NCBI GenBank assembly: GCA_035623075.1
Contig: DASPUC010000005.1
Span: 1-64,000, forward strand
DNA length: 64,000 bases
Reading direction: 5' to 3'
DNA from: Nitrospiraceae bacterium
GTDB lineage: Bacteria > Nitrospirota > Nitrospiria > Nitrospirales > Nitrospiraceae
A program made the translations under genes and the position numbers. The notes beneath the pieces are model-generated. The model saw only the letters and a list, made by a program, of their open reading frames with translations, ran no database searches and was not told the origin of the DNA. This document shows positions 48,998 to 58,818 of the stretch, piece after piece (the first letter of the stretch is position 1; every line of letters begins with the position of its first letter).

Positions 48998-49085
48998 CGG
49001 CTGTAGCTTCTACGCTGGCACATCGAATGCAACCGTGCTGCTCATCGAATATCCGTGCAATGCTGTCTCACATGTGGGAGGTCCA

Positions 49086-50090
49086 ATGGCACAGCTTTTC
49101 TATGTAATTATAGTAGGCTTTCTTCTGTCCGTCGTGACCCCCGTCTTCGCTGACGGCGGCCATCAGCATCACGCGGTTCCCACATTGAACGGCCAGACCA
49201 CGACGAAGGTCACCATCGCTGAGAATATCGTGACCCTCACGTTCGGACCAGTCGATCTCCCGTCCGCGCACGACGGGGACCTCGCTGCGTCCATGCCGAA
49301 GCATGTATTCCAGCTTCCTAAGGACATGTATATGGTGGGCTACAAATCAGCCGTGTTTACCAAAGACGGCACAACGCTGCCGAGAAACTACCTGCACCAC
49401 ATTCTCATGTTGAATAACGATAAACCCAGTGTCTCATGCCCCGGAGAGCCACTCTTCTTCAGCGGGGCCGGACTTGAGATGACCGAAGCGCGCTTTCCCG
49501 ATGGGTATGGCGTCAAGCTGGCGAAGGGCCAAAACTTAATGTCCGTCGTGGCGTTTTATCACAAAGCCCCGCGCACCAAGGATGTCATGGCCAGCTTCAC
49601 CATGTACATGGCACCGGAGGGAAAGCCGATTAAGGAAATGGACGTCTATCAGGTCGGAGTGAACGTCGTGTGCTACAGCAAATTTGCTCAGCGCGGCCCC
49701 GATCAAACCGATGAAGGCATTGAAATTAAGAACGGGGTCCAGGTGCATAGTGCTCCTCTGAAGTTCTTAATGGATGGCTGTGTCAAATTTGCTTATCCGC
49801 ATGGACACGATGAGTTGTTGCTGATCGCGTTGGAAAACAAGACGAGGAAGCAGACACTTCTCCGGACTGTACCAGACGTCGCGAGTGATGGAGCCTTTCT
49901 CGAATTTCAACCTCATCAAGTGTATAAGGACGCCAGAGGGTTTTCAGTCACCACAGCAGACGACTATGAAATGGTGATGGTCCACCATCATCCATTGCAA
50001 AAAGAAGAACTGCAGCATGGAATGGGAAATTATCTTCTCTATATGACTCCGGGAATCTGTTCCGGTACCGATACCGCACTCGCCAAGTAA
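49086..50090 (+). CDS. Exported protein, possible copper type II monooxygenase-like fold
   Basis: 334 residues from ATG 49086, preceded by GTGGGAGGT. Signal peptide YVIIVGFLLSVVTPVFA, then HQHHAVP. Histidine groups at RNYLHHILMLNN, SVVAFYHKAP, FAYPHGHDELLLIAL and EMVMVHHHPLQKEELQHGMG recall the copper ligands of PHM-type ascorbate-dependent monooxygenases. Several cysteines (PSVSCPGEP, VNVVCYSK, MDGCVKF) could form disulfides. The match is by eye; a metal-binding periplasmic protein is safer than a named enzyme. A terminator-like hairpin follows about 120 bases downstream. Confidence 0.7.
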   Translation: MAQLFYVIIVGFLLSVVTPVFADGGHQHHAVPTLNGQTTTKVTIAENIVTLTFGPVDLPSAHDGDLAASMPKHVFQLPKDMYMVGYKSAVFTKDGTTLPRNYLHHILMLNNDKPSVSCPGEPLFFSGAGLEMTEARFPDGYGVKLAKGQNLMSVVAFYHKAPRTKDVMASFTMYMAPEGKPIKEMDVYQVGVNVVCYSKFAQRGPDQTDEGIEIKNGVQVHSAPLKFLMDGCVKFAYPHGHDELLLIALENKTRKQTLLRTVPDVASDGAFLEFQPHQVYKDARGFSVTTADDYEMVMVHHHPLQKEELQHGMGNYLLYMTPGICSGTDTALAK

Positions 50091-50425: not shown

Positions 50426-53400
50426 ATGCCGCAGAGTCAGTCCCCCACGGTTTTGGTCGCCAGCCCCAGAGCGGAAGAAATCAAACTCATCACCATCAGC
50501 CTTCGCGGATTCTTTCCGAGCTGTCGAATAGAAATCGTCTATGCCCCTGAGGAAGCTATGGTATGGGCGCCCATGCAGGATTGGGACGTGATCCTGATCG
50601 ACGACGAATGGGTACCACCCGGCGGTCGGTCGTCTGTGATCGACGCATTGAAACAGCACGCTCCGTACGCCACCATCCTTGTCGAAAGTGATCACGCCGA
50701 TTCGGCCTCAGCCCTTCAGGCTCTCCAGGCGGGAGCCGACTTTTACTTGTACCGAAAATCCCCCGGTTTCCTTGCCGAGTTGATGTTCTATATACGAGAG
50801 GCGATTGATCGACGCGAGATGCGTGTCACGCTCGAGCGGACACAGGAACGTCGTCTGCGTCTGCTCGAACTACTCACCGACATCCTATACGAACTGGACC
50901 CGGAAGGCCGCTTTCTCTCGATCGGTCCCGGCATCACGCCCCTATTGGGATATCCCGTTGAGGAACTGATCGGCCAGTCCTATACAATCCTCCTTCCATC
51001 GGACCAGCACGCGCTTGCTCACCATCGATTTAACGAACGCCGAGCAGGCATACGCGCAACCAAACGGACCGAACTGCTGCTCCGGCCCAAGCCGGGCCAG
51101 AAAGAGACGACTAATCGCCTGTTCGCAGAGGTCACGGCCAAAGGGCTTTATGACACCCGTCGCCGGTTTTTGGGAACGATCGGGTTGATTCGTGATCTTT
51201 CCTCGCGGAAAGAATACGAAAACACGATCCAACAGTTTCAACAGCGCGTGCGGCACTCTGACCAACTACACACACTCGTTCACCACATCACAGAATTCTC
51301 ACGCAATCTCCAAGCGCCGCTCACCGCCGTCCTTGATGATTCTCGCCATCTTCTAGACGCGCTTCGTGGTTTGCGGTTTGAGGAGCGCATCGACTCCCTG
51401 ACCGGTCATGCGACAACTGCAATGGCACTCGCTCAACAAGTCACTGAGACCCTGCGCGAGTCTGTCCTCCTCCCTGGCGCAGGCACCGTGAATGAACTCC
51501 TCGACGAAGTAATCGGCACGATTAGTCTTGCAGAGAACGGGGTGGCTGCGATTGTGACTCAATTCTCCCGGCCACTTCCGCCTTACGAGAATGACCGGGA
51601 CACATCTTTGGCGCTCTTTCGCCTCCTGATCCGGTATGCCCAGGCCTATCTACGCACGGTCGGCCGGATTCCTAGACTGACCGTCATCACACATGGTGTC
51701 GGCGTTCCATCGTTGATCTCGGAAACTCCGGCGCTCTTCCCCCTCTCGCCACCGACCGAGGTAGAAGTAGAAATCCGTGAGTCTGATCGCGGACAAGAAG
51801 CCACCGTTACACTTGAGCAGATTGAATCCGTTGATCTTCTCACTGCTTATCAACTCGTCCGAGATTTGAGCGGCACCTTGGATTTTGCTGCACCGGTTCA
51901 CGGTCCGCTTCGTATTGTCGTTCGTCTTCCTGTTTCTCCTCGGGTAAGACAGGAACCTTCTTCACCCAAACCACCAGCCTCAGTACCACCTGCTGCCGCG
52001 CCGATCATCACTCAGGGCCTCCCAACGGGAGAGCGTCCTGCTGTTCAGCCTACGGCGCTAGAGCGTCGACGCAGTGTTCGCATTTCGACGACCCTCCCCG
52101 CTCATGTGACCCTCGGCTCGGCCACATGGGTTGGTACTGTGATGAACCTGAGCACGGGCGGGGCGTGCCTCATCCTTCCGCCAGATATGCCGTCGTTGGA
52201 CATACAAACTGTCATCGTCGCTCTGAAAACTGAGGTCGGCATTCTTGAACTTGGTGGAAACGCTTACTGGCGAACCGCAGCATCCGCCCCCCGAGAGCAC
52301 CATGTACCCTCGTCCCATCTTGTTCTGGTATTTTCTGCTCCTCCGCCACAAGAAGCCTCTGTCCTCGCTTCTCTGGTCGAGGCCGCACGTGAACGTTCGC
52401 TCGCGTTTATCCTGGAAGCTCAGCTTTCGGCCACCCCCCGCTCACAGCCGCTTGAGACCACCATTGTACCGAGTGCTGGTGGTGAAACCGATCGACGGGA
52501 GGCCGTCCGTCTGAAATTCTCCCTCCCAGCGCATCTCGATGTTACCGATCAATTTGGATCCAGCAGACGACTGTCGGCTCTTGTCACCGATATGAGTCGA
52601 ACCGGTGTTTGTCTCGAAATCCACGCTCCGCCAGGTCCGCTGTCTGGCTCAGTCACTTTGCATTTTGTCGAGGCGCACATTTCCACCATCCCGCCTGCAG
52701 ACGGACCAACGGCGCCGGATGCAGTGATTCCAGCCCGCATCGTTTGGACGACCGGAATATCACCTGTCCACCGGACCGTCCCTGCCACGATGCTCGAACC
52801 AGCCTTTCGCCTTGGCCTCTGCTTTCACGCTCTGACTCCGTATGCCGAACGGGAAATCAATCGTGTGCTGTACCGCCGGTTGACGTCCGACGAAGGAACA
52901 GGCGATACCCTTCTCCGTCGTACACCGGTCATCAGCATCCCCAGAGAATGCCGGAACCAGCGCGGGCAAACCATTGCGATTACAGACGATCATCTCCGCC
53001 ATCCGCTCACGTCGAACCTTCCTGTAGTCATCATCGCGCCAGGCTATGGCCAGACCGCTGCAGACTATGCAGCCCTGGGACACTTTCTCGCCCATCATCG
53101 CATCCGTGTCCTACGGTATGACCACACCAATCATCTGGGTCTGAGCGAAGGCGAACTGCAGCATACGTCGCTCCGAAGCATGCAAGCAGACCTCACCAAG
53201 GTGATTGAGTTCGTCCATCACACGTGGGCCGGGGTACCCATTGCAATTATCGCCAGTGACATCGCAGCCCGGGTTGCACTCAAAGCCGCGGGACAGTCCT
53301 CATCCATCGCACTCATTGTGTTGGTTAATCCGACCGTCGACCTTCAAGTGATGTTCCAGACCACTCACGCGCATGATCTCCTGACTGATTACCGCTTTGG

Positions 53401-54616
53401 GTTCCGTCGCGGCATCACGAATCTCATAAGTCTGAACGTCAACCTTGATCACTTTGTTGGTGATGCTATCGCAGGCAATTTCACTGATCTTGCGTCGACT
53501 TTGGACGATCTTCGTCTGGCTCGAGTCCCTCTTGCAGTAGTCACGACGCCCATCAGTCCTCTGAGTCCCCTTCCCCCATCCGACCTTCCACATACGTTCA
53601 TAACCGCGCTTGGAACACGAAACCGTGTAACCAGCGTGCCCGCGGTGCTAACTGAATCGTGCCTGTCGTTCGGATCCCCAGCTGTTGCAGCATTTCGGCA
53701 GATCCTGGACCAGATCGCTTCCGCCATGACACTTCCAGAAAACCCGGTCGAGCTTCAGGAACAAGCTGAGCGGTCGCTCAACCGTCAACGCCGGATCGAG
53801 ATGGAACGAACATGCCTGCGCCATGGTGTGTCAGGTGTGACTCGAGAAGCGCTATGGCTAGCTTATCTGCAACAGCTTCCTCATCTGGCCAACCTTCATG
53901 AACATTGGAAACTGATGGATGATCTGTATCGATCTCTGGGACCACTTGACCCATCTACGGTTATCGTGGACATCGACGGCAGCAACACCGACTTGGTCCG
54001 AGTCATGTTGGTTAACCAAACCTATCGAGCCCGGTATCGTGAAAGGACTCAGGAACCGCCGCCGAAACTAGTAGAACTAGGACGTACTCGTGGCTCCCTC
54101 CTGCTCGCTCGTCGGACCTTTCAAGCGCTTTTTCATGAACTGGACCGCACTTGGGATGGTGGGCTACGAGCGTACCCCCCGCTGACCACTGCAACCATTC
54201 AGACCGAGTGGACCTCCGCCCTTCCATTCCAAGACGGTACGCTCCAACGCATCGTCTGCAATCTCGCACTTCCATTTGTTCCTTCTCCTCTCGCTTTCTT
54301 ACGGGAACTTTATCGAGTTCTTCATCCGCAAGGACGGCTTGTGCTCACAGCGTTCCACCCTGAGACAGACTTGAGCACCTTTTACCGCCACCATCTTCGG
54401 AGCGTGCACCAGGACGAATTTGGGACCGAAGGTCAGATCGTCCTGCATTACCTAGGCCGGCTCCGAGAAGCAATTCGCCACGGCCTCTTACATACGTTTG
54501 ACCGTATAACTCTGTCTCACTTGCTGCAGCAGTCAGGGATTGCAGCCCCCCGTATTTCGTCGGTTTTTAACGGTCAGGCTTTGCTCGCGATCGTTGAAAA
54601 GGGGGAATTCCTCTAG
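50426..54616 (+). CDS. Giant multidomain signalling protein: REC-PAS-pseudokinase-PilZ-PilZ-LuxD-like-methyltransferase-like
   Basis: 1396 residues with no signal or membrane segment, so cytoplasmic. Receiver (1-130): D59/D60 in VILIDDEW and K111 remain, but the acidic pair after strand 1 is lost (VLVASPRAE). PAS about 145-262. Kinase-like region about 275-505: the H-box reads FSRNLQAPLT, with R293 for His, and no N or G boxes are seen. PilZ1 about 545-640 (RRRSVR, NLSTGG 574-579) and PilZ2 about 688-815 (RREAVR, DMSRTG 722-727) keep both c-di-GMP motifs. About 835-1090 resembles LuxD: LPVVIIAPGYGQTA, RYDHTNHLGLSEGEL and S944 in IASDIAAR. About 1125-1396 is methyltransferase-like (ALPFQDGTLQRIVCNLALPF) with a weak SAM motif. 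Likely a c-di-GMP sensor; enzyme activities unproven. Confidence 0.85.
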   Translation: MPQSQSPTVLVASPRAEEIKLITISLRGFFPSCRIEIVYAPEEAMVWAPMQDWDVILIDDEWVPPGGRSSVIDALKQHAPYATILVESDHADSASALQALQAGADFYLYRKSPGFLAELMFYIREAIDRREMRVTLERTQERRLRLLELLTDILYELDPEGRFLSIGPGITPLLGYPVEELIGQSYTILLPSDQHALAHHRFNERRAGIRATKRTELLLRPKPGQKETTNRLFAEVTAKGLYDTRRRFLGTIGLIRDLSSRKEYENTIQQFQQRVRHSDQLHTLVHHITEFSRNLQAPLTAVLDDSRHLLDALRGLRFEERIDSLTGHATTAMALAQQVTETLRESVLLPGAGTVNELLDEVIGTISLAENGVAAIVTQFSRPLPPYENDRDTSLALFRLLIRYAQAYLRTVGRIPRLTVITHGVGVPSLISETPALFPLSPPTEVEVEIRESDRGQEATVTLEQIESVDLLTAYQLVRDLSGTLDFAAPVHGPLRIVVRLPVSPRVRQEPSSPKPPASVPPAAAPIITQGLPTGERPAVQPTALERRRSVRISTTLPAHVTLGSATWVGTVMNLSTGGACLILPPDMPSLDIQTVIVALKTEVGILELGGNAYWRTAASAPREHHVPSSHLVLVFSAPPPQEASVLASLVEAARERSLAFILEAQLSATPRSQPLETTIVPSAGGETDRREAVRLKFSLPAHLDVTDQFGSSRRLSALVTDMSRTGVCLEIHAPPGPLSGSVTLHFVEAHISTIPPADGPTAPDAVIPARIVWTTGISPVHRTVPATMLEPAFRLGLCFHALTPYAEREINRVLYRRLTSDEGTGDTLLRRTPVISIPRECRNQRGQTIAITDDHLRHPLTSNLPVVIIAPGYGQTAADYAALGHFLAHHRIRVLRYDHTNHLGLSEGELQHTSLRSMQADLTKVIEFVHHTWAGVPIAIIASDIAARVALKAAGQSSSIALIVLVNPTVDLQVMFQTTHAHDLLTDYRFGFRRGITNLISLNVNLDHFVGDAIAGNFTDLASTLDDLRLARVPLAVVTTPISPLSPLPPSDLPHTFITALGTRNRVTSVPAVLTESCLSFGSPAVAAFRQILDQIASAMTLPENPVELQEQAERSLNRQRRIEMERTCLRHGVSGVTREALWLAYLQQLPHLANLHEHWKLMDDLYRSLGPLDPSTVIVDIDGSNTDLVRVMLVNQTYRARYRERTQEPPPKLVELGRTRGSLLLARRTFQALFHELDRTWDGGLRAYPPLTTATIQTEWTSALPFQDGTLQRIVCNLALPFVPSPLAFLRELYRVLHPQGRLVLTAFHPETDLSTFYRHHLRSVHQDEFGTEGQIVLHYLGRLREAIRHGLLHTFDRITLSHLLQQSGIAAPRISSVFNGQALLAIVEKGEFL

Positions 54617-54668: not shown

Positions 54669-56018
54669 GTGAGCGGCTTTCGGCTAACGGCACAGGACCT
54701 GGAGCCACACGTCGGTAGCCCGATGCGCATCCGCCCTATGACAGCACGACGACCCAACATCGATCGTTCTCCGGTTCCGGTTTCCTTGAATATCCTCGAG
54801 TTACTCACTCGGTTTTCCTCCGATCTTGGGGCAATGACAGACCTTCGTGCCTTGAGCGATCGGATTCTGCAGACACTTTGCACCGCGGGATCCAGCTCGC
54901 ATGGTGCTCTGTTCGTTTTAGATCGTGAACGGGACCGGTATCGGCGGATGAGCACGATTGGCCCCGTAGCCAATTCGGCATTTCCCACGAGCCTGCCAGC
55001 CGATCATCCCTTGCCCCATCATTTGACTCAAATTCGCCGAATCTTCATCCAAAAAGATATTCCTACGAAGCGTCGTTACAGCGATTCCAACTCGACGATT
55101 CGACCAATGATGGAATCGTTTCAAGCCGCCTGCGCCATTCCACACTTCAACAAAGGCCGCCTCATTGCCTATTCGATCCTGGGGAAAAGTCATATGTCCG
55201 ACATGGTCGACAAGGAATCCCAGCTTGTGCTCACCTCCCTCGCCCAGATTGCGGCAAATGCGCTGGACAACATCATGCTCTATGAAGACCTCCACCGCTC
55301 CCAAACCTTGATGAAACGAACAGACCGCCTGAAGTCTCTCGAGACCATTGCCGGCGGGTTCGCCCACGAAATCCGCAACCCCTTAACTTCTATCAAAACG
55401 TTTATCCAGCTGGCCCCTGAACGAAAGGATGATGCTGATTTTATTAGGGAATTCAGCAAAGTGGTGATTGACGATGTGTACAGGATTGAGCGGTTGATCC
55501 AAGAAATCCTGGACTATGCCCGATATATGGAACCGAAGTTGACGGATGAGGACATCAATGAGATCGTTTCCTCCTGCCTGTACTTCGTCGACGTAAAGGC
55601 CGAACGGCTGGGGATAAAGATTGAAAAAGAGTTGGCGTCTGACTTACCTCGTGTCATGCTGGACCGTCAGCAAGTCAAGCAAGTTCTGTTAAACCTGCTC
55701 CTGAACGCCATGGATGCTATGGGTGAGCGGGGAGGGCGGTTGCATGTTCGGACACACAAGCTTATGAAACCAGGAGGAAAGATCTGGGCTCAGATCGAGA
55801 TAGAGGACACGGGCCACGGTATCCCGGAAGGCACGCTTGAACATATCTTTGATCCGTTTTTTACCACAAAACATGAAAGTGGTGAGCACGAGGGCACAGG
55901 ACTGGGTTTGACGATCGTTCATCAAATTATTCAGGAACACCGGGGCGAAATTCAGGTCAAGAGTACGGTCGACGTAGGCACTACCTTTTTCGTCAACCTT
56001 CCCGCCTTGCCGGCCTAA
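54669..56018 (+). CDS. Cytoplasmic histidine kinase with GAF domain
   Basis: 449 residues from GTG 54669; ATGs at 54723 and 54738 are possible starts and none has a good ribosome site. There are no membrane segments. A GAF-like sensor (about 35-205) includes SSHGALFVLDRERDRYRRMS and LTSLAQIAANALDNIMLYED. The HisKA domain has IAGGFAHEIRNPLTSIKTF with the phosphorylatable His near residue 233, and the ATPase domain has LLNLLLNAMDAMGERGG (N box), IEDTGHGIPEGTLE (G1) and HEGTGLGLTIVHQI (G2). The NtrB-like H-box and the NtrC-type gene two bases downstream make them partners. It also follows the giant fusion gene by only 52 bases. Confidence 0.93.
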   Translation: MSGFRLTAQDLEPHVGSPMRIRPMTARRPNIDRSPVPVSLNILELLTRFSSDLGAMTDLRALSDRILQTLCTAGSSSHGALFVLDRERDRYRRMSTIGPVANSAFPTSLPADHPLPHHLTQIRRIFIQKDIPTKRRYSDSNSTIRPMMESFQAACAIPHFNKGRLIAYSILGKSHMSDMVDKESQLVLTSLAQIAANALDNIMLYEDLHRSQTLMKRTDRLKSLETIAGGFAHEIRNPLTSIKTFIQLAPERKDDADFIREFSKVVIDDVYRIERLIQEILDYARYMEPKLTDEDINEIVSSCLYFVDVKAERLGIKIEKELASDLPRVMLDRQQVKQVLLNLLLNAMDAMGERGGRLHVRTHKLMKPGGKIWAQIEIEDTGHGIPEGTLEHIFDPFFTTKHESGEHEGTGLGLTIVHQIIQEHRGEIQVKSTVDVGTTFFVNLPALPA

Positions 56019-56020
56019 CC

Positions 56021-57463
56021 ATGAAACACGACGTCGACCCCACCATAAAGAAACGCGTACTCCTCATCGACGATGAACCTCGTATCAGGGCTTCACTCAA
56101 AATGGTCTTAGAGCCGACGTATGAGGTGTTCCAGGCAGGCGATGCACAGGAAGGTCTCGAAGTGTTCCGTAAGGAGGCACCTCATTTGGTTCTCCTTGAC
56201 GTTATCCTACCGGGAACGGATGGTCTTGCAATCCTGCAAACACTGCGGACCGAGGATCGCTCGACGCCCGTCATCATGCTGACGGGAACGAAGTCTGTGA
56301 AGACTGCCGTTGACGCGATGAAGCTTGGCGCCGCTGACTATCTCTCCAAGCCATTCGAGGTCGAGGAGCTTCGGATTGTCGTTGACAAGGCACTCAATTC
56401 CCAAGAACTGGAACGGGAGGTCAAGCAACTTCGTGCGCAGGTCGTCCAGCGATACGCGTTCCACAACCTGATCGGTAAAAGTCCTGCCATGCAGGACATC
56501 TATGGCAAGATTGAGCAAGTTGCAGACAGCCGAACCACGGTTCTCATCACAGGCGATAGCGGAACAGGGAAAGAATTAGTCGCCAAGGCACTCCACTACA
56601 ACAGTTCACGGCGCGACCGTCCATTCGTGGCGTTGAATTGTGCCGCTCTTCCGGAAACGCTCATCGAGTCGGAGTTATTCGGCCACGAGAAGGGCTCCTT
56701 TACGGACGCAACGGCCCGCCGCGTCGGCCAGTTTGAGCTTGCAAACAACGGGACGCTGTTTCTTGATGAGATCGGCGACCTCAGCCCTATGACGCAGGCA
56801 AAGTTGTTGCGCGTGTTGCAGGAACGAGAATTTACGAGAATTGGCGGCGTCCAAGCCATTAAAGTTGACGTGCGTATCATCGCCGCGACCAACAAGAACA
56901 TTGAGGAACTGGTCAGGAAAAATCAATTCCGGGAAGACTTGTATTACCGGATCAACGTCATTTCCCTCTACCTACCGCCCTTGCGCGAGCGTGGCGAGGA
57001 CATTCCCCTCCTGGCCAAGCACTTTCTCGCTAAACGCGTCGAAGAAGACGGTCGCCCTCACCAAGAGTTTACCAAGGAGGCCATGGAGCTCTTGAGTCGC
57101 TATCCCTGGCCAGGCAATGTGAGAGAAATGGAGAACATCATCGAACAGGCGTTTATTTGGTCAAAAGGATCTGCCTCCGTCACACCAGAACACCTTCCGA
57201 ATATTCTCCGAAATGATACCCGCTCGTCTTCTCTCCGCGACGACACGCTTGCGGGGCGACTTTCCCTCGAAAAAGCCGTGATGGAGTTCGAGCGCGAGAT
57301 TATCTTGGACGCTCTTAAACGAACCAACTATGTACAGACCCATGCTGCCAACCTCTTGGGAATTAGCCGCCGGATGCTAAAATACCGAATGGACACACTC
57401 GGCATTGGCCGACCCGACAACGAAGTCAGCGGCGAACCCCAGCCTCCGCCAGTGCAGGAATAA
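56021..57463 (+). CDS. Sigma-54-dependent response regulator (NtrC family), GSFTDA variant
   Basis: 480 residues: receiver (10-130; acidic pair in LLIDDEP, phosphoacceptor D60, K110), AAA+ domain (150-375; Walker A GDSGTGKE, Walker B LFLDEIGDLSPM) and Fis-type DNA-binding end (YVQTHAANLLGISRRMLKYR). The sigma-54 contact loop reads GSFTDA (225-230) instead of GAFTGA; the essential Thr is kept. It begins two bases after the kinase stop, so they form a coupled two-component pair. A terminator-like element follows. A sigma-54-type promoter lies upstream of the next gene, which is thus a candidate target. Confidence 0.94.
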   Translation: MKHDVDPTIKKRVLLIDDEPRIRASLKMVLEPTYEVFQAGDAQEGLEVFRKEAPHLVLLDVILPGTDGLAILQTLRTEDRSTPVIMLTGTKSVKTAVDAMKLGAADYLSKPFEVEELRIVVDKALNSQELEREVKQLRAQVVQRYAFHNLIGKSPAMQDIYGKIEQVADSRTTVLITGDSGTGKELVAKALHYNSSRRDRPFVALNCAALPETLIESELFGHEKGSFTDATARRVGQFELANNGTLFLDEIGDLSPMTQAKLLRVLQEREFTRIGGVQAIKVDVRIIAATNKNIEELVRKNQFREDLYYRINVISLYLPPLRERGEDIPLLAKHFLAKRVEEDGRPHQEFTKEAMELLSRYPWPGNVREMENIIEQAFIWSKGSASVTPEHLPNILRNDTRSSSLRDDTLAGRLSLEKAVMEFEREIILDALKRTNYVQTHAANLLGISRRMLKYRMDTLGIGRPDNEVSGEPQPPPVQE

Positions 57464-57615: not shown

Positions 57616-57631
57616 CGGAATAGGAATTGCT
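57616..57631 (+). promoter_or_regulatory. Sigma-54-type promoter before the HD-GYP gene
   Basis: CGG at 57616-57618 and TTGCT at 57627-57631 have the exact ten-base GG-to-GC spacing of -24/-12 promoters. The -12 part matches well, the -24 part (CGGAAT) only in GG. Transcription would start near 57642, 25 bases before the ATG at 57667. The neighbouring NtrC-type regulator is a plausible activator. Confidence 0.4.
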
Positions 57632-57666
57632 TGACAGAATACGTAATTGGGGGTAGAGGACACTAC

Positions 57667-58818
57667 ATGAACATTGCCTCCACGCAAGGCACAGAGAAGA
57701 CGAAGCCGACCGTCCTGGTGATTGACGATGAGGCCGGGCCACGTGATGCCCTTAAAGTTATCCTGCGCCCTTTCTTCAATATTCAAGCCGCAGAATCGGC
57801 CAAGGCCGCCATCGACCTACTTAACTCGCACCAGATAGACCTCATCACCCTCGACCAGAAACTCCCCGACCGACAGGGTTTGGATCTCTTACAAGACATC
57901 AAGCATACCCACGCAGACGTCGAAGTCATCATTATCACGGGTTACGGCAGCTTAAAATCAGCGATGGAAGGCATCCGGCACGGTGCAGCCGGGTACCTCC
58001 TCAAACCGTTCAACGTGACGGAACTTATCACCCTCGTCAACCAGACCTTAGAAAAAAAGCAGCGCCTTGATTTCCTGCGAAACTTCTTGAATACCAAACC
58101 TACCCTCTGGGGATCTGAGCAAGAGAGCGCTAAAGCGTGGAAAGAATTGATGGCGGGCTACTATCGTATTGGGAGTAAGAGATCTGCCGACCCGGGAAGC
58201 ACGGGCGAGACGTCGGATGTCCTTCCGATGCTTTCAGATTTGCTGGAAGCCAAGGATCGCCAACTGCTCAACCACTGTAGCCGCGTGAGCTTCTACGCAA
58301 CGCTGTTGGCCAACCGGATGAATCTCACCATGGCGGAGCAAAAGTCACTCGCTCTCGGGGCCTTTCTTCATGACATCGGGAAAATCGTATCAGAATCGTA
58401 CCGGTTCGCCGACGACGAAATATCCCCAGCCGGAGAGACCACAAGCAATCACCAGCATCCGGAACTCGGCGCTCGCATGATTCTTCCCCTTGGCCTTCCT
58501 GCCGAAGTGGGACAGATCGTGTCCTACCACCACGAGCGATGGGATGGGTCTGGTTACCCGCATGGTCTACAAGGTGACGGTATCCCGGTGTTGGCTCGTA
58601 TCGTGTGTCTCGCACAAGCCTTTGACCATCTTACGGCAGAACTTCCCGGGCGCACTTCCATGACCGTCGACCGTGCTTGTCACAACATGGTTCAGCATGC
58701 CGGAACGTTCTTTGATCCGATGCTCACCGAACTCTTCACACGTGTGGTCGATGAATGCAAGGCTTCTCTCCCCGCGATGGCCATTGCGACCACCCCAACA
58801 ACCGAACCGGACGCGTAA
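57667..58818 (+). CDS. Response regulator with HD-GYP phosphodiesterase domain
   Basis: 383 residues from ATG 57667 (GAGG eight bases upstream; the frame to 57631 is rejected). Receiver about 1-135 with acidic pair VLVIDDEAG, phosphoacceptor Asp in LITLDQKLPD and Lys in GYLLKPFNVT. HD-GYP domain about 195-370: HCSRVSFYATLLANRM, GAFLHDIGKIVSES (HD), HQHPELGARMI, and HHERWDGSGYPHGLQGDGIP with the GYP triad, followed by LARIVCLAQAFDHLT. These residues fit an active c-di-GMP phosphodiesterase. It forms the last gene of the cluster that starts with the PilZ-bearing fusion protein. Convergent with recN, 6 bases apart. Confidence 0.94.
   Translation: MNIASTQGTEKTKPTVLVIDDEAGPRDALKVILRPFFNIQAAESAKAAIDLLNSHQIDLITLDQKLPDRQGLDLLQDIKHTHADVEVIIITGYGSLKSAMEGIRHGAAGYLLKPFNVTELITLVNQTLEKKQRLDFLRNFLNTKPTLWGSEQESAKAWKELMAGYYRIGSKRSADPGSTGETSDVLPMLSDLLEAKDRQLLNHCSRVSFYATLLANRMNLTMAEQKSLALGAFLHDIGKIVSESYRFADDEISPAGETTSNHQHPELGARMILPLGLPAEVGQIVSYHHERWDGSGYPHGLQGDGIPVLARIVCLAQAFDHLTAELPGRTSMTVDRACHNMVQHAGTFFDPMLTELFTRVVDECKASLPAMAIATTPTTEPDA

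Follow-up and report, generated by a model that had tools for sequence, protein, structure and literature searches.

The window, a stretch of 64,000 nucleotides of DNA from a Nitrospiraceae bacterium, encodes a 1396-residue protein in which receiver, PAS, kinase-like and PilZ modules precede the folds of acyl- and methyl-transfer enzymes. The locus raises the question of whether c-di-GMP bound to the PilZ domains controls the C-terminal enzymes, as the initial annotation had suggested, or whether the protein has a different function. This very long regulator is conserved among Nitrospira-type nitrifiers, and its relatives with intact active sites point to an unrecognised lipid-signalling system.

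Architecture and conservation of the long protein

The gene is a single open frame with an ATG start and no internal stops, as determined by inspection of open reading frames (Table 1). All seven modules named in the initial annotation were recovered by Pfam and hhalign. Pfam profiles recognised the LuxD-like fold (Acyl_transf_2, 1e-13, residues 865-1040), the PilZ domains (1.3e-12, two stretches), the methyltransferase-like fold (Methyltransf_11, 3.5e-7) and the PAS domain, and matched the receiver weakly and below the threshold (E 0.008). The kinase-like module has no Pfam match, and profile-profile comparison with true histidine kinases of the family identified it as a degenerate HisKA-HATPase. 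The PilZ motifs are located where they had been annotated, with RRRSVR at residues 547-552, NLSTGG at 574-579, RREAVR at 690-695 and DMSRTG at 722-727.

Table 1 Coordinates of the window gene, its modules and downstream genes, and of PilZ-KASIII genes in other genomes
Feature	Position	Strand	Evidence
Whole protein, REC-PAS-pseudoHK-PilZ-PilZ-pseudoLuxD-pseudoMT, 1396 aa	50426..54616	+	Open frame; 28 full-length homologues
Receiver, aa 1-125; phospho-acceptor Asp59 present, acidic pair absent	50426..50800	+	Weak Pfam match; residue comparison
PAS, aa 140-262	50843..51211	+	Pfam 1.2e-7
Degenerate histidine-kinase module, aa 268-506; Arg293 in place of the H-box His, no ATP boxes	51227..51943	+	hhalign 6E-19; alignment A3
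PilZ1, aa 542-675; RRRSVR and NLSTGG	52049..52450	+	Pfam; motif inspection
PilZ2, aa 684-812; RREAVR and DMSRTG, motif residues invariant	52475..52861	+	Pfam; motif inspection
LuxD-like alpha/beta-hydrolase, aa 840-1094; Ser replaced by Asp945, triad Asp and His missing	52943..53707	+	Pfam, alignments, predicted structure
Asp945 codon, nucleophile position	53258..53260	+	Asp in 28/28 long forms; every intact relative has Ser
Class I methyltransferase-like module with a degenerate motif I, aa 1110-1394	53753..54607	+	Pfam; alignments
Remnant of SAM motif I, DIDGSNT, aa 1182-1188; intact relatives read DAGCGNG	53969..53989	+	Alignment
Soluble GAF-HisKA-HATPase kinase, without the 7TM sensor of intact relatives	54669..56018	+	Pfam; membrane-segment prediction
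NtrC-type response regulator (REC-AAA-Fis)	56021..57463	+	Pfam; GAFTGA loop reads GSFTDA
REC-HD-GYP, predicted c-di-GMP phosphodiesterase	57631..58818	+	Pfam; HDIGK and HHERWDGSGYP intact
PilZ fused to KASIII (FabH-like), directly before 7TM kinase	L153:7433-8998, L064:7158-8756, L171:6118-7701, L172:7973-9148		

Another 28 genomes of the family (Nitrospirales) encode full-length homologues with 31-51% identity. Therefore, both chance and an assembly error that merged separate genes are excluded as origins of the architecture. The initial annotation had considered the module order undescribed, and the literature searched contains no paper that combines Nitrospira with LuxD or PilZ with LuxD. 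The architecture is thus real, conserved and, in the literature searched, undescribed.

The kinase, regulator and phosphodiesterase genes follow the window gene in an operon that is conserved among its relatives, so that one locus is predicted to encode both a receptor and a phosphodiesterase for c-di-GMP. The GAFTGA loop of NtrC-type regulators usually contacts sigma-54; no convincing sigma-54 promoter was found near the operon. A 351-residue protein without Pfam or NCBIfam match is encoded at positions 49035-50090 of the window, and its gene is located upstream in most loci of the family.

Residues retained and lost in the long forms

Residues were compared in 28 long forms, including the window protein. 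The phospho-acceptor Asp59 of the receiver is invariant in all of them. YcgR-type PilZ receptors of c-di-GMP are characterised by the motifs RxxxR and [D/N]xSxxG (PMC11800159), and both PilZ domains of the window protein contain them. The motif residues are invariant in PilZ2 (Arg691, Arg695, Ser724 and Gly727 in 28/28) and nearly so in PilZ1, where Arg548, Arg552 and Gly579 do not vary in any long form. The intact state ascribed to both motifs in the initial annotation is thus borne out, with Pfam scores above the cut-off, and the domains look competent for c-di-GMP binding. However, this PilZ pair differs from known receptors in its attachment to receiver, PAS, pseudokinase and pseudo-synthase modules.

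In the window copy, the catalytic residues of the kinase-like, LuxD-like and methyltransferase-like modules have been lost. The H-box His is retained in two of the 28 long forms; the window protein reads SRNLQAPL at this place and has no G boxes. The Ser-Asp-His triad of LuxD is absent from the window module, in which Asp945 occupies the position of the nucleophile, as it does in every long form, and the triad Asp and His are missing. Judged by these residues, the LuxD module of the window copy is very probably inactive. SAM motif I is weakened across the long clade, and most other long forms keep its GxG, that is, two glycines. Therefore, the loss of the methyltransferase is complete only in the window copy, the SAM motif of which is the most degraded of its clade.

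The LuxD-like module is similar in fold and sequence to LuxD, the myristoyl-ACP thioesterase of Vibrio harveyi (PDB 1THT), which was the second-best PDB match in a Foldseek search with the AlphaFold model of residues 836-1396 (E 7e-13, pLDDT 79). In contrast to LuxD, it lacks the triad and scores 50.7 of 420 bits, far under the LuxD equivalog cut-off. No luxC or luxE gene was seen beside the window gene. For LuxD, pairwise dN/dS ranges from 0.10 to 0.32 among four pairs of dead sequences and from 0.08 to 0.22 among five intact pairs; the dead modules remain under purifying selection.

These residues bear on what the window protein can do. The model of the initial annotation, in which PilZ-bound c-di-GMP switches active acyl- and methyl-transfer enzymes, agrees with the intact PilZ motifs and with the still recognisable LuxD and methyltransferase folds. 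However, the window copy retains neither the nucleophile Ser nor the triad Asp and His nor SAM motif I, so that c-di-GMP driving the C-terminal enzymes is unsupported in the window protein and very improbable. An active enzyme in the window copy was rejected on the same motifs. Haloalkane dehalogenases and epoxide hydrolases use an Asp nucleophile, and the strict invariance of Asp945 in the 28 long forms from several genera could reflect a new LuxD chemistry in which Asp945 attacks the substrate. However, the His and the acid that such chemistry needs are not conserved at their positions, and the two triad loops are poorly predicted in the model; this alternative is improbable. That the window gene is a decaying pseudogene is hardly credible. 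The state of its SAM motif could be read in this way, but the frame of 1396 codons is open, the operon is conserved, dN/dS is low in the relatives, and the PilZ and receiver residues are invariant.

The suggestion of a new type of effector has a different outcome in the relatives. PilZ-fused LuxD-methyltransferases with intact active sites do occur, as different proteins of different genomes (for example L055, L059 and L101). The proposed kind of effector may therefore be real there, whereas it would have been derived away in the window protein, the sites of which are dead.

Intact relatives and their pairing with 7TM kinases

Shorter relatives contain the same pair of LuxD and methyltransferase (LuxD-MT), in which Ser, Asp, His and DxGCGNG are invariant (alignment A1); the invariance of the triad was counted over 15 intact relatives. 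In other classes, LuxD-MT occurs alone (549-672 aa). It also follows an N-terminal stretch that does not match PilZ (~780 aa), and occurs in the order PilZ-PilZ-LuxD-MT (~930 aa), and as REC-PAS-PilZ-PilZ-LuxD-MT (~1150-1280 aa). In the genus that includes N. defluvii, short intact and long dead copies are both present. In the window genome, only the dead copy is present; no intact LuxD copy was found, and no HisKA_7TM protein was detected at E 1e-8.

A 7TM-GAF histidine kinase directly follows or is fused to the intact LuxD-MT gene in all 58 loci with a readable flank. The fusion (L060:8383-13308) is a single chain of 1641 residues with the order PilZ-PilZ-LuxD-MT-7TM-GAF-HK, that is, the synthase together with its presumed sensor. 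In the N. defluvii genus, kinases of ~1000 residues beside the intact enzyme have two tandem 7TM domains (e.g. L101:9693-12701). The kinase at the corresponding place in the dead clade is either absent or a soluble GAF kinase (422-464 residues) in which no membrane segments are predicted. Directly behind the gene of locus L051, in which Ser is replaced by Gly, there is a 65-residue remnant of the 7TM start. Among the readable loci that have lost Ser, a 7TM kinase is retained solely in L064 (Ser to Asn), in which a PilZ-KASIII gene is positioned between the LuxD-MT gene and the kinase.

Some observations count against the interpretation proposed below. In L066, the triad Asp and His are kept, yet the kinase is soluble, and the divergent PilZ-(LuxD-like)-MT proteins of L141-L143 are accompanied by a hybrid kinase without 7TM. 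L141 has an acyl-CoA dehydrogenase gene in front. In the phylogenetic tree, all Ser-lost sequences belong to one group (SH-aLRT 87); the association of the triad with the 7TM sensor therefore rests on few events, not on eighty independent ones. For the table of triad and 7TM states, Fisher's test gives p 5e-19; given the relatedness of the sequences, this value is not read as a probability. The apparent Ser loss in L144 is a split-gene artefact and was excluded from the counts. Foldseek of the 7TM sensor retrieved generic GPCR-like topology only (TM ~0.45) and was not counted as evidence. The window protein very probably descends from a 7TM-linked enzyme.

A candidate acyl-signal system and its putative non-catalytic derivative

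In the outgroup operons L139 and L140, genes for a ketoacyl synthase (KAS), ACP, LuxD-MT and a 7TM kinase follow each other. Among the 236 Nitrospirales genomes, only four contain a PilZ-KASIII gene, which in every case lies immediately upstream of a 7TM kinase; the gene in L172 is truncated by the contig end, where its PilZ part is missing from the sequence. In none of these four genomes, two of which are incomplete (G033, 76%; G069, 87%), was an intact LuxD found. Because of these arrangements, an acyl-processing enzyme appears to be a required partner of the 7TM sensor, and one kind appears able to replace another.

An acyl-processing partner with a methyltransferase at hand resembles the Phc system of Ralstonia (PhcB/PhcS/PhcR/PhcQ), in which a kinase senses an acyl methyl ester produced by a methyltransferase (PMC8578825). 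In both systems, methyltransferase and sensor-kinase genes share one operon, acyl chemistry is implied, and receiver proteins follow; the arrangement of a methyltransferase synthase beside a membrane sensor kinase is observed in 58/58 readable intact loci. By this likeness of gene order and implied chemistry, the intact relatives may work as PhcB/PhcS do. However, here the methyltransferase forms one protein with a LuxD-type enzyme and PilZ domains, 7TM-GAF sensors are part of the kinase, and the regulator is NtrC-like. An active synthase with a membrane sensor kinase is absent at the window copy, which has lost both its catalytic residues and the membrane sensor. The ancestral signal could well have been a lipid and, by analogy with Phc, perhaps a fatty-acid methyl ester.

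It is also conceivable that the intact LuxD-MT proteins are ordinary lipid-modifying enzymes, acting for example on membrane lipids or in the manner of BioC/BioH, that the 7TM kinase senses, for instance, the state of the membrane, and that the window protein is a dead derivative. In favour of this reading, the methyltransferase resembles many families, BioC included. However, no match in six genomes reaches the curated BioC cut-off, and membership in the biotin pathway was rejected on this basis. The tight pairing with the 7TM kinase, which extends to fusion in one polypeptide, and the PilZ-KASIII replacement next to the same kinase also argue against ordinary lipid modification, which is considered unlikely.

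A pseudo-synthase scaffold fits the evidence better than an active effector. With modest confidence, the window copy is interpreted as what remains of a synthase that made an acyl signal and had a membrane sensor as its partner, kept as a cytoplasmic scaffold that binds c-di-GMP. In the ancestor, a LuxD-type acyl-ACP thioesterase/acyltransferase would have been joined to a SAM methyltransferase to give a bifunctional acyl-signal synthase. Its gene would have adjoined that of the 7TM-GAF histidine kinase sensing the product, and PilZ domains would subsequently have brought the synthase under the control of c-di-GMP. The window lineage would have acquired an N-terminal REC-PAS-kinase block. Its LuxD active site would have been destroyed, with an Asp fixed in place of Ser and the triad Asp and His gone, and its methyltransferase would have decayed; the neighbouring kinase is soluble and has no membrane sensor. 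PilZ1 and PilZ2 of the remaining scaffold would bind c-di-GMP, with PAS and the receiver as further inputs, and the pseudo-LuxD/MT part may offer a surface for binding or docking, through which the GAF kinase, NtrC regulator and HD-GYP phosphodiesterase encoded alongside are tuned. For the scaffold role taken by itself, the chances are evenly balanced. The plant receptor GID1 has an alpha/beta-hydrolase fold that lost catalysis and was retained for binding. The pseudo-LuxD module resembles GID1 as a non-catalytic hydrolase fold with a proposed binding role; it differs in being one part of a signalling hub, with a ligand that is only putative. If the interpretation is correct, the window protein would be a regulator without catalysis that arose from the fold of a signal synthase through a traceable series of intermediates.

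The quorum sensing described in nitrite-oxidising and comammox Nitrospirales employs acyl-homoserine lactones, long known only in lineage II (PMC12342949). It is tentatively proposed, with more doubt than confidence, that Nitrospirota possess an undescribed lipid-signal system of another kind, composed of KAS/ACP or PilZ-KASIII, LuxD-methyltransferase, 7TM-GAF kinase and NtrC regulator, with a c-di-GMP-gated synthase. In part of the family, the synthase would have become a non-catalytic regulator that binds c-di-GMP and perhaps lipid, and the kinase would have lost its membrane sensor. If so, the intact LuxD-MT/7TM pair, for example of Candidatus Nitrospira defluvii (FP929003.1, L101), would constitute a second signal class under c-di-GMP control, and biofilm signalling in nitrifiers would be directly testable.

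Scanning of contigs with the window protein as query gave no matches; scanning with an alignment of the intact relatives did, and the related named records are Nitrospirota. A metagenome-assembled genome labelled Nitrospinota (L088) contains a Nitrospirales-like LuxD-MT gene, indicating either transfer or a mislabelled bin.
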